Part shown: piece by piece, positions 38,054 through 62,846 of the stretch
Layout: every line of letters begins with the position of its first letter
How positions within the stretch are numbered: position 1 is the stretch's first letter
Assembly (NCBI RefSeq): GCF_038051985.1
Contig: NZ_CP150291.1
Span: forward strand, 744,001-808,000
DNA from: Solibacillus sp. FSL H8-0523
Lineage (GTDB): Bacteria; Bacillota; Bacilli; Bacillales_A; Planococcaceae
Direction of reading: 5' to 3'
Length of the DNA: 64,000 nucleotides
Notes under the pieces: model-generated
Databases searched by the model: none
The model's input: the letters and a program-made list of their open reading frames with translations, nothing else
What the model was told of the DNA's origin: nothing
Program-made: the position numbers and the translations under genes

Positions 38054-38202
38054 TTCATTATCCTCCTTTTTCCTATCGTACATAACTATACGGTCAAATT
38101 TAATAATAGAACAAAATGGTAAATGTTTCAATGACAACATTGTGTCATCGTGACCAAAATTGGTATAATTAAACTTAACAAAATACGACAATGGAGGGTT
38201 TT

Positions 38203-39246
38203 ATGAAGGCCTTATTTCAAATCTTGATTATCGCTACATGTATTGGGATTGTTGTATATTATACAAATGTGGAGCCTTCGAAAACAGAATTATTAGAAGG
38301 GCCAACAGCGATTACCAAACCAGTATTAGAAACAGCATCCGTACAAAATGATATCGGTGGCTTGCCTAGGCCTGATACAGGTATTTCCATTTTTATTGGT
38401 GATAAAGAGAAAGAGATTTTGGATAATTACGGTAAGCCTTTGCGTGTGGATCCATCTGAGTTTGGCTATGAATGGTGGGTGTATGAAAAGAATGCAGCAC
38501 TATTAATGGTTGGAGTTATGAACGGGGAAGTTGTACAAATTTATACAAATGACGTGAATGTTAATACAGCGCCTTATCTGATTGGCGAGTCGATTGATGA
38601 TATTTACCGGCATACCATTTTGGAGCAAGAAGTAACCGTTGAAATTGGGGATAATCTCTATATCGTTGCAATGAGTGAGCAGGATATGAAAAATCGTTTG
38701 TTAGTAAAATATGAGGATCTATACATACAGCTTTATATCGATCGTGATCACAATACGTTATATGCGATACGCTTTATTGATGGTGCAACGTTAGTATTAC
38801 ATAAAACCTATGAAATGCAGTTTGTTGGGGAGCTTGTTGAAGCAAGTACACCATCAAGCTATGCACAAGTTGCTATTAATGCAGCAGTTGGTCGCCAATT
38901 AACGGAATTAACAAATGCTTTTCGTGTAAAGCAGCAATTACCAAAACTAGATGAATCCACTCTATTAGCAGAGCTAGCGCGTGAACACAGTGAGCAAATG
39001 GTTTTAGCGTCAATGGAATCACAAACAATCGAATCAGATTTTGATTTGAGTGCTCGGCTACAGGAACGAACTATAAGCTATGAGCATTTAGGTGAAAATG
39101 TAGCGGCCAATTATAAGGATTCCATTGAAGTTTTACATGGCTGGATAAATTCTAAAGAACACCGAGCGCTTTTATTAAGCGAAGATTATACACAAATCGG
39201 GTCCGGTACCTATGTGAATTACCATACGCAATTTTATATGCACTAA
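38203..39246 (+). CDS. ylbC: CAP-domain protein with N-terminal CAP-associated domain (YlbC)
   Basis: 347 residues: N-terminal hydrophobic anchor (about 5-20), a CAP-associated domain (about 60-200; IFIGDKEKEILDNYGKPLRVDPSEFGYEWWVY) and a C-terminal CAP/SCP domain (about 230-345; LTELTNAFRVKQQLPKL, LAREHSEQM, HLGENVAAN, HGWINSKEHRALLL). Secreted or surface protein; other spore formers use CAP proteins in coat or sporulation, but no role is proven here. ATG 38203 follows GGAGG. Confidence 0.9.
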   Translation: MKALFQILIIATCIGIVVYYTNVEPSKTELLEGPTAITKPVLETASVQNDIGGLPRPDTGISIFIGDKEKEILDNYGKPLRVDPSEFGYEWWVYEKNAALLMVGVMNGEVVQIYTNDVNVNTAPYLIGESIDDIYRHTILEQEVTVEIGDNLYIVAMSEQDMKNRLLVKYEDLYIQLYIDRDHNTLYAIRFIDGATLVLHKTYEMQFVGELVEASTPSSYAQVAINAAVGRQLTELTNAFRVKQQLPKLDESTLLAELAREHSEQMVLASMESQTIESDFDLSARLQERTISYEHLGENVAANYKDSIEVLHGWINSKEHRALLLSEDYTQIGSGTYVNYHTQFYMH

Positions 39247-39251
39247 CTAGT

Positions 39252-39284
39252 AAAAAAACGTTACGTCTTAGTAGCGTTTTTTTA
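39252..39284 (+). terminator. Terminator between ylbC and the murE homologue
   Basis: Stem AAAAAAACGTTAC / GTAGCGTTTTTTT with one G-U pair and a 6-base loop. It separates ylbC from the next gene, whose start lies only 34 bases later. Confidence 0.88.
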
Positions 39285-39291
39285 TTTGGTT

Positions 39292-39299
39292 CATACAGT
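39292..39299 (+). promoter_or_regulatory. SigE-like -10 element ahead of the murE homologue
   Basis: CATACAGT equals the sigma-E -10 consensus (CATACAnT) and also fits the sigma-K pattern CATAnnnTA. No convincing -35 is found 13-16 bases upstream (GTAGCGT at 14), and the start site would fall in the ribosome binding site. Suggestive only. Confidence 0.3.
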
Positions 39300-39318
39300 A
39301 AGGTAAGGAGTGTGAGCG

Positions 39319-40788
39319 GTGCAATTAGCAGAGCTATTAAATGATTGGCCTTGTACGGTAAAGGGCTCTGTGCGGTGTGAAGTGAACAGCATAGAAGATT
39401 ACGCTAGTCATGTAACGGCTGGTACGCTTTTTGTTGCAAGGAAGGGCCAGGTTTCGAATGGACTTCATTATATTGCGCAAGCGATTTCCAATGGTGCAGT
39501 CGCCATTGTCGTTGATGACGAGCATTATTTTAATATGACCAAGTTAGCCGTGCCACTTATTTGGGTGCCGAATGTATTAAGTTTTTTAGCCTATAGCTGT
39601 GCAAAAATAAATCGTTTCCCTGCAGAAGCGTTAACGGTTATTGCGGTGACTGGAACGAATGGGAAAACGACAGTTACACATTTTATCGGGCAATTATTGC
39701 AAAGGCAAAAGCAACAAGTGATGGTGATTGGTACGAATGGCGTTTATATTAACGGAGAACGCTGTGAAGAGCATAAGGTATCGTTAACAACGCTACAGCC
39801 AAAACAAATGCAAGCGTTATTTCAAGAAGCGGTGAGCAAAGAAATTGGCTACGTCGTACTAGAAGCTTCATCGATTGGCTTACAAAAGCACCGCTTAGAT
39901 TATTGCGATATTGACGTGGGTGTATTTTTAAATGTAACGGAAGATCATTTAGATGAACATGGTAGCTTTGAAAATTATAAATTAGCCAAACAAATCTTAG
40001 TGACATTGGCCAAACAAGTAATCGTCAACGGGGACGATGCGATTTGTCGGTCAATTGGCTTTACGAAAAAAGGCAAGAGAAACTTTTTTGGGAAAGGGCA
40101 GCATGTCGATTATTTTTACCAAGCAATCTACGAAGGGAATGCGAACACGACATGTCTTGTACAACATAAGGATGAAAAGTATGTTGTACACATTCCGTTT
40201 GTCGGGGATTATCAATGTGCCAATGTATTAGCAGCAATCAGTACATTAGCACAATTAGGTTTTTCACTTGAACAATTATGTCGTTATAGCGAAACACTTA
40301 ACCTGCCTGAAGGACGATTTGAGCGAATTGAGAACGCGAGAGGCATTGATATTATTATTGATTATGCCCATACACCCGATGCAATGAAACAAATACTGCA
40401 GGCAGTCAAAAAACAAACGCGGCAAAAGGTAATTGTTGTTTTTAGTTGTGGTGGTAACAGGGACCGGGAGAAGCGCCCGAAAATGGGGATGATTGCATCA
40501 ATTTATGCCAATAGCATTGTGTTAACAACTGACAATGCGCGAAATGAAAGTCCGCAAGCTATAAATGCACAAATTCAGCAGGGCTTTTCGTCTACGCAAA
40601 TTTTTAAGGAAGTACTGGACAGGAAGCAAGCTATTTTTACAGCATTAAATGAAGCGGATGAAGGCGATAGTGTAGTTATTTTAGGGAAGGGGCATGAAAA
40701 GACACAACAAATTGGTGATGTACAAAGCAACTTTTCAGATAAGGAATGCGTACTTGAATTTTTAAAAGTAAACAACACGAGTAGATAA
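39319..40788 (+). CDS. murE: MurE-type UDP-MurNAc-tripeptide synthetase, outside the dcw cluster
   Basis: ATP-dependent ligase adding the third residue to UDP-MurNAc-L-Ala-D-Glu. 489 residues. UDP-binding N-domain (1-100), ATP loop TGTNGKTT (111-118), HRLDYCDIDVGVFLNVTEDHLD with YKLAK (carbamylated-lysine region), and the C-domain. Residues that select the amino acid: DNAR (405-408; DAP enzymes have DNPR, Lys enzymes typically lack this Arg) and GKGHE (456-460, with the Glu used by DAP enzymes). This favours meso-diaminopimelate. GTG start with AAGGAG 8 bases upstream. Single gene behind a terminator. Symbol by family; it may be a second, special-purpose copy. Confidence 0.85.
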   Translation: MQLAELLNDWPCTVKGSVRCEVNSIEDYASHVTAGTLFVARKGQVSNGLHYIAQAISNGAVAIVVDDEHYFNMTKLAVPLIWVPNVLSFLAYSCAKINRFPAEALTVIAVTGTNGKTTVTHFIGQLLQRQKQQVMVIGTNGVYINGERCEEHKVSLTTLQPKQMQALFQEAVSKEIGYVVLEASSIGLQKHRLDYCDIDVGVFLNVTEDHLDEHGSFENYKLAKQILVTLAKQVIVNGDDAICRSIGFTKKGKRNFFGKGQHVDYFYQAIYEGNANTTCLVQHKDEKYVVHIPFVGDYQCANVLAAISTLAQLGFSLEQLCRYSETLNLPEGRFERIENARGIDIIIDYAHTPDAMKQILQAVKKQTRQKVIVVFSCGGNRDREKRPKMGMIASIYANSIVLTTDNARNESPQAINAQIQQGFSSTQIFKEVLDRKQAIFTALNEADEGDSVVILGKGHEKTQQIGDVQSNFSDKECVLEFLKVNNTSR

Positions 40789-40823: not shown

Positions 40824-40847
40824 TAAAGAAGATTGGAGGAATTAACA

Positions 40848-41294
40848 ATGCTCATGACTTCAGATTGGATAATGATTTTAGATGAGGTCGATGAATTAAG
40901 CGCCATGATTCTTTCTTCTACACAAGCACAAACCTATCGTAGTGCGCATAAGGCAGTGTATGAGGATGAAGCATTGAGTGCTCAAATTAAGGCCTTTCAA
41001 CGATTAAAAGATCACTATGAGGATGTCCAACGTTTTGGAAAATATCATCCTGATTACCATACAATTATGAAACAAATTCGAACAGAAAAACGTGCACTTG
41101 ACCTAAATGAACAGGTGGCTATGCTGAAGATAGCGGAAAATGAATATCAAGATTTACTTGATGAGATTAGCTTCATTATTGGCCGCTCTGTTTCAGAGGC
41201 CGTAAAAATTCCAGCAAGCAACCCATTTTTCGCGAGTACTTCGTCTTGCGGTACGAGCTGTGGTACAGGTGGCGGCTGTTCTTGTTCGGCATAA
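40848..41294 (+). CDS. ylbF: YlbF, RNase Y regulatory (Y-complex) subunit
   Basis: 148-residue helical protein of the YlbF/YmcA family. In B. subtilis YlbF, YmcA and YaaT form a complex carrying iron-sulfur clusters that directs RNase Y and affects sporulation, competence and biofilms. The cysteine-rich end (SSCGTSCGTGGGCSCSA) fits cluster binding. ATG 40848 lies 8 bases behind GGAGG; the TTG at 40833 is inside that site. Terminator at 41314. Confidence 0.93.
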   Translation: MLMTSDWIMILDEVDELSAMILSSTQAQTYRSAHKAVYEDEALSAQIKAFQRLKDHYEDVQRFGKYHPDYHTIMKQIRTEKRALDLNEQVAMLKIAENEYQDLLDEISFIIGRSVSEAVKIPASNPFFASTSSCGTSCGTGGGCSCSA

Positions 41295-62706: not shown

Positions 62707-62846
62707 ATTGTATTTCAGCCTTTAAAAATCCAACTAAAAGAACTATTATAGTGAATGACGTTTTTTGTAAAGATATTGTAGAAAAACGATTTATCGAAGC
62801 AAGAACGCCACCGCATTTTAAACAGAAGTTTTAAAGGAGATTTATT
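62707..62846 (+). other. 140-base gap at the usual murE position
   Basis: Between spoVD and mraY, where B. subtilis has murE. It contains no MurE remnant I can see. One frame stays open for about 40 codons (reads NPTKRTIIVNDVFCKDIVE in part) but has no start with a ribosome site. Confidence 0.6.

Follow-up and report, generated by a model that had tools for sequence, protein, structure and literature searches.

The stretch of DNA considered here (the window) comprises 64,000 nucleotides of Solibacillus sp. FSL H8-0523, a member of the Planococcaceae whose genome forms one contig of 4.14 Mb (NZ_CP150291.1, positions 744,001 to 808,000 of the forward strand). It carries a murE homologue, here termed murE class B (murE-B), which is a candidate for the ligase that adds diaminopimelate (DAP) to precursors of the spore cortex, as a preliminary description of the sequence had proposed. 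The gene and its two diagnostic motifs are placed as follows, in window coordinates:

39319..40788, + strand: murE class B, sporulation-linked MurE, predicted UDP-MurNAc-L-Ala-D-Glu:meso-DAP ligase
40531..40542, + strand: DNAR codons, residues 405-408 (DNPR-type DAP motif)
40684..40698, + strand: GKGHE codons, residues 456-460

The product is a full-length MurE, the fold spanning the entire protein, with a score of 436 bits against TIGR01085 (MurE; curated cut-off 257) and the three Mur domains PF01225, PF08245 and PF02875. DNAR and GKGHE, with alanine for the proline of DNPR, can be read in the protein as the preliminary description had stated, at the places where DAP-adding enzymes carry DNPR and GKGHE. 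The asparagine and arginine of DNPR are the residues that bind meso-DAP (mDAP), at its second carboxyl (PMC3829189). In the alignment, 22/22 class B rows have DN[PAS]R and GKGHE and retain the position of the carbamylated lysine, and TGTNGKT is unchanged across 16 aligned rows; among 50 class B loci, which were read directly in about 50 genomes, the arginine and GKGHE are found in all 50 and the asparagine in 49. The proline is not retained in genera g1, g18 and g19 (genera are numbered throughout), and the sole loss of the asparagine, to DSPR, is seen in locus L197 (genome G060, g11). The best match of class B among solved sequences is the Thermotoga maritima MurE 4bub, at 245 bits. A different list of structure matches did not tell DAP enzymes from lysine enzymes.

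Class B is almost certainly tied to sporulation. The family includes both spore formers and non-spore formers (PMC6971209), and class B was searched for, together with SpoIVA as the single sporulation marker, in the same 250 genomes from 19 genera, which are not 250 independent tests; the counts come from a reading of both result tables. SpoIVA was matched in 186/250 genomes, four of them from g2 and the other 182 from 12 genera (the match of G099, one of the 182, is only partial, at 6.6e-34). The preliminary description had named retention of the gene by non-sporulating relatives as evidence against a spore role; class B is present in 182/182 SpoIVA-matching genomes outside g2 and in 0/64 genomes without SpoIVA (g7, g8, g9, g10, g13, g16). 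The class B calls were based on E-values: 180 of those 182 genomes reach 3e-84 or better, and the remaining 70 of the 250 have 1e-67 or worse, or no match at all. Two genomes with split, weak matches, G228 and G232, were considered as sporulators without class B, and this was ruled out when their loci (L081, L096) were read and found to encode class B with DNPR in both. When the six non-spore genera are placed on the protein tree of the second MurE type of the family, class A, 5 changes are counted, at least 4 of them forced by well-supported branches, although the Staphylococcus aureus row is misplaced in that tree. Joint loss of class B and spoIVA thus occurred several times, and such repeated loss along with sporulation argues that class B is needed for spores only.

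Genus g2 (4 genomes) shows decay of both genes. SpoIVA is decaying in three genomes, with best E-values of 5.6e-10, 1.3e-37 and 1.5e-50, and in these three class B consists of C-terminal fragments only, lying between ylbC and ylbF; two of the three loci also hold fragments of an aspartokinase gene. The fourth genome, G020, has a strong SpoIVA match (5.4e-141), retains the aspartokinase, and has a class B frame that is open but drifted (DNPR, GKGNE).

The surroundings of murE-B bear out the claim of the preliminary description that the gene lies outside the dcw cluster, in the ylb region:

38191..39246, + strand: CAP-domain gene like ylbC, next upstream, retained in 11/12 non-spore loci examined
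40833..41294, + strand: ylbF-like gene, downstream neighbour, present in 16/16 non-spore and g2 genomes examined
62707..62846, + strand: empty dcw slot, between a spoVD-like gene and mraY (genes named by recognition)

In three other Bacilli examined, murE immediately follows the spoVD-like gene (gene names again by recognition). The 12 non-spore loci examined gave no class B match and keep ylbF in 12/12 and ylbC in 11/12; with the g2 loci included, the figures are 16/16 and 14/16. As both neighbours are mostly retained, murE-B itself was lost, not the whole locus.

Two MurE matches exceed the family cut-off in the source genome, class B and class A, the latter at C1:711386-712762, where one frame separates it from a prfC-like gene (named by recognition). 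The best solved match of class A is the L-lysine MurE of S. aureus, 4c12, at 461 bits, the runner-up reaching 295. In the larger tree, class A shares a clade with the S. aureus enzyme (support 100/100), adjoining the Bacillaceae MurEs (91/94), and class B forms a clade of its own (99/99) in which branches are long; one Sporosarcina falls among the g3 rows. In the smaller tree, class B is recovered at 100/100, and class A, the Bacillaceae and the dcw-context MurEs group together at 99/95. Rows L150 and L162 had no usable frame for the larger tree, and row L109, which gave a useless branch there, was excluded from the motif alignment and the smaller tree. The class B sequences make up a single clade that a long stem sets apart from the Bacillota references, and the deep forks are poorly supported. 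In a search of 299 genomes of the class, those of the family among them, the best match from another family scores 438 bits, and the three best such matches are DNPR MurEs in dcw context, which is no proof that class B is absent elsewhere. The idea that class B is merely a relocated dcw murE was rejected on the two trees, where it groups neither with the Bacillaceae MurEs nor with the dcw-context ones; a dcw position was seen for L227-L229 only, the named Bacillaceae rows not having been checked for context.

The forecast of a second, lysine-type MurE elsewhere in the genome is thus borne out by the clade of class A with the S. aureus enzyme, whereas the accompanying forecast that this enzyme would lack the arginine of DNPR failed: 21/21 class A rows carry DDPR, as does the lysine enzyme of T. 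maritima, and not the DNPA of S. aureus 4c12. Class A is therefore a sister type of the S. aureus L-lysine MurE that does not share its motif, and we infer that it adds lysine in this organism. The NCBIfam DAP-ligase model fits both proteins, and class A (519 bits) better than class B (436 bits), so that such annotation cannot separate the two. Class B shares the fold, DNxR and GKGHE with mDAP-adding MurEs (Escherichia coli 1e8c, Bacillaceae MurE) but differs in forming a separate clade, lying outside dcw, being tied to sporulation and having the proline replaced in g1, g18 and g19. The T. maritima enzyme, an LD-lysine ligase, resembles class B in lacking the DSR motif, yet has DDPR against DNxR, and a clade uniting the two is unsupported. 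This DSR motif belongs to the UDP-binding N-domain (about residues 24-34 of the murE-B protein in the window); it is missing in class B and present in class A and most aligned MurEs.

Class A is present in sampled genomes of every genus, spore-forming or not, except g2 and g5. The sampled g2 and g5 genomes carry instead a MurE type termed class D (L065, L066, L087-L091), with KDVV or KDIV for DNPR and CQGMD for GKGHE. Further paralogues with DDLN-like or DHPG motifs, class C (L060, L061, L064, L076-L078, L080, L082, L092-L094) and class E (L084-L086), occur in some genomes, sporulating or not. Three MurF-like genes (L004, L006, L007), one of them within a 724-aa frame, are clustered at C1:3038298-3045596 in the source genome, and its sole MurF over the cut-off lies at C1:3853319-3854587.

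The region upstream of murE-B contains the following elements:

39252..39283, + strand: hairpin and T-run in the gap from ylbC to murE-B, read by eye as a probable terminator of ylbC
39271..39276, + strand: GTAGCG, possible weak -35 region, where other genera have GTGACA/GTGTCA; overlaps the probable terminator
39292..39300, + strand: CATACAGTA, -10 element, matching CATANNNTA of the Bacillus subtilis SigK consensus and also fitting CATANANTN of SigE

The probable terminator suggests that murE-B has a promoter of its own. A CATAnnnTA box lies within 100 bp upstream of class B in 42/44 loci and then in 6/6 further loci (48/50), as well as in the window; it was found upstream of 0/22 class A genes, in a mean of 1.4/44 dinucleotide-shuffled class B upstream regions, and upstream of 0/49 other open reading frames of the window (ATG starts only, murE-B not included). 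The two misses are L071, with the box at -162, and L073, with a one-base variant at -71; L079 was counted through a site at -49, unlike the -71 site of its neighbours. The exact box occurs in 11 of the 12 sporulating genera, the remaining one, g12 (L073), having the variant. Across 25 promoter rows, selected for CATAnnnT with A or G as the next base, positions 5-6 are variable, T8 is kept in 25/25 and A9 in 24/25, and GTGACA or GTGTCA stands about 16 nt upstream of the box in most rows, GTAGCG of the window being a weak match. Variable positions 5-6 with T8 and A9 kept fit mother-cell sigma factors, and SigK best; the B. subtilis consensus sequences, as given in PMC3416734, are KCACM / GCATANNNTA for SigK and TYATATTT / KCATANANTN for SigE. 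The genome encodes a SigK-like protein (290 bits against a cut-off of 298.65, which B. subtilis SigK also fails to reach), and the second match of the sigK search was taken as SigE. Judged from these promoter sequences, class B would be transcribed in the mother cell.

A divergently oriented gene for a protein of about 245 aa lies opposite class B in g3, g4, g5, g6, g12 and g17; examples are:

L095, 6510-7238: divergent aspartokinase
L072, 6555-7322: divergent aspartokinase
L099, 4083-4814: divergent aspartokinase; others occur

Four of the proteins match the amino acid kinase domain, and in three the best family is the monofunctional aspartokinase NF006068, aligned over positions 3-248 of 405 at 240-267 bits, below the cut-off of 474. 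The divergent partner thus comprises the catalytic domain only and lacks the regulatory (ACT) part of that family, a family to which B. subtilis DapG is linked. In the one partner compared with solved structures, KFGG and GRGGSD are kept and residues past KFGG differ. A survey of 20 genomes, one from each genus and one more from g2, found the short aspartokinase in these six sporulating genera and in G020, and not in the other 13; two of the matches contain one stop each, in terminal or near-terminal position. The aspartokinase side of the intergenic region likewise shows SigK-like sequence: [CA]ATAnnnTA is present in 10/10 loci (1.8 in shuffles) and the strict CATAnnnTA in 4/10 (0.6 in shuffles). 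Aspartokinase supplies the DAP pathway, so a copy free of feedback beside a DAP ligase would make sense. The genome of the window yielded one weak match within a 457-aa frame and none at a stricter limit, and the idea that the short aspartokinase belongs to the system of the window itself is not supported, no short copy having been found in that genome.

Several other readings of class B have to be weighed. It could be the ordinary DAP-adding MurE of a DAP-type vegetative wall, moved out of the dcw cluster, with class A as an extra; the empty dcw slot and the fit of the DAP-ligase model to both classes would accord with this. The reading is nevertheless very improbable: class A is the MurE found in all sampled genera but g2 and g5 irrespective of spore formation, class B is missing in 64/64 genomes without SpoIVA, where an enzyme essential for growth would not track sporulation, and class B stands apart from the Bacillaceae and the three dcw-context MurEs, to which class A is sister. 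Even less credence is due to a MurE homologue retained for sporulation in a non-enzymatic or regulatory role, a reading to which the lost DSR motif and the long class B branches lend themselves, but which the invariant TGTNGKT (16 rows) and the kept carbamylated-lysine position, DNxR and GKGHE (22 rows) contradict.

A sporulation-specific enzyme with lysine or a different amino acid as its substrate, or with a role in some other spore layer (the germ cell wall, for instance), is unlikely, though less so than either of these. The motif is insufficient as a predictor of specificity according to PMC3829189, which also describes S. aureus MurE variants in which A409R did not gain mDAP activity and P408A, in the DNPA motif, retained the lysine-adding phenotype. 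The lysine enzyme of T. maritima is the closest of the solved sequences, and DNPR has lost its proline in three genera and its asparagine in L197. Against this stand the arginine and GKGHE in 50/50 loci with the asparagine in 49/50, the paired aspartokinase, which is consistent with DAP supply, and a promoter of mother-cell type; the germ cell wall, in contrast, is presumably built from the forespore side.

Taken together, class B is read as a sporulation-specific MurE, very probably the DAP ligase of the cortex, acting in the mother cell, and DAP as its substrate is highly likely. In the mother cell the enzyme would attach meso-diaminopimelate to UDP-MurNAc-L-Ala-D-Glu and so provide a precursor for the spore cortex, which its product presumably enters, while the vegetative wall would be built by the separate, lysine-adding class A of S. 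aureus type. The spore-cortex reading of the preliminary description is thus supported at the level of sequence by the link to spoIVA, the second MurE, the SigK-type promoter sequence and the decay in g2, its forecast about the arginine of the other MurE excepted. We lean towards a broader picture in which the sporulating members of the family carry a dedicated mother-cell DAP module that changes wall chemistry, in the cortex and nowhere else, from lysine to DAP; its fuller form would combine the feedback-free catalytic domain of an aspartokinase with the DAP-adding MurE under divergent SigK-type promoters, several lineages having given up the kinase but not the ligase, and the sampled lineages that lost sporulation having lost, or being in the course of losing, both.

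The name Lysinibacillus derives from the Lys-Asp wall (PMC6971209). A literature search of open-licence papers, judged mostly by title or abstract, found no publication naming the class B gene. Work of 1974-76 on Bacillus (Lysinibacillus) sphaericus reportedly described a DAP-adding activity of the sporulation stage, distinct from the vegetative lysine-adding one, and DAP is said to have been confined to the cortex in that organism. That ligase was named as an activity; the present analysis adds a candidate gene together with its probable regulation and the pattern of its occurrence, and so a regulatory logic open to test for an activity known from the biochemistry of the 1970s. The automatic annotation model calls both MurEs DAP ligases, and such calls should be read with caution. 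One organism would hold two MurEs of differing specificity, one of them reserved for spores, and why the cortex would need DAP becomes open to direct genetic test.
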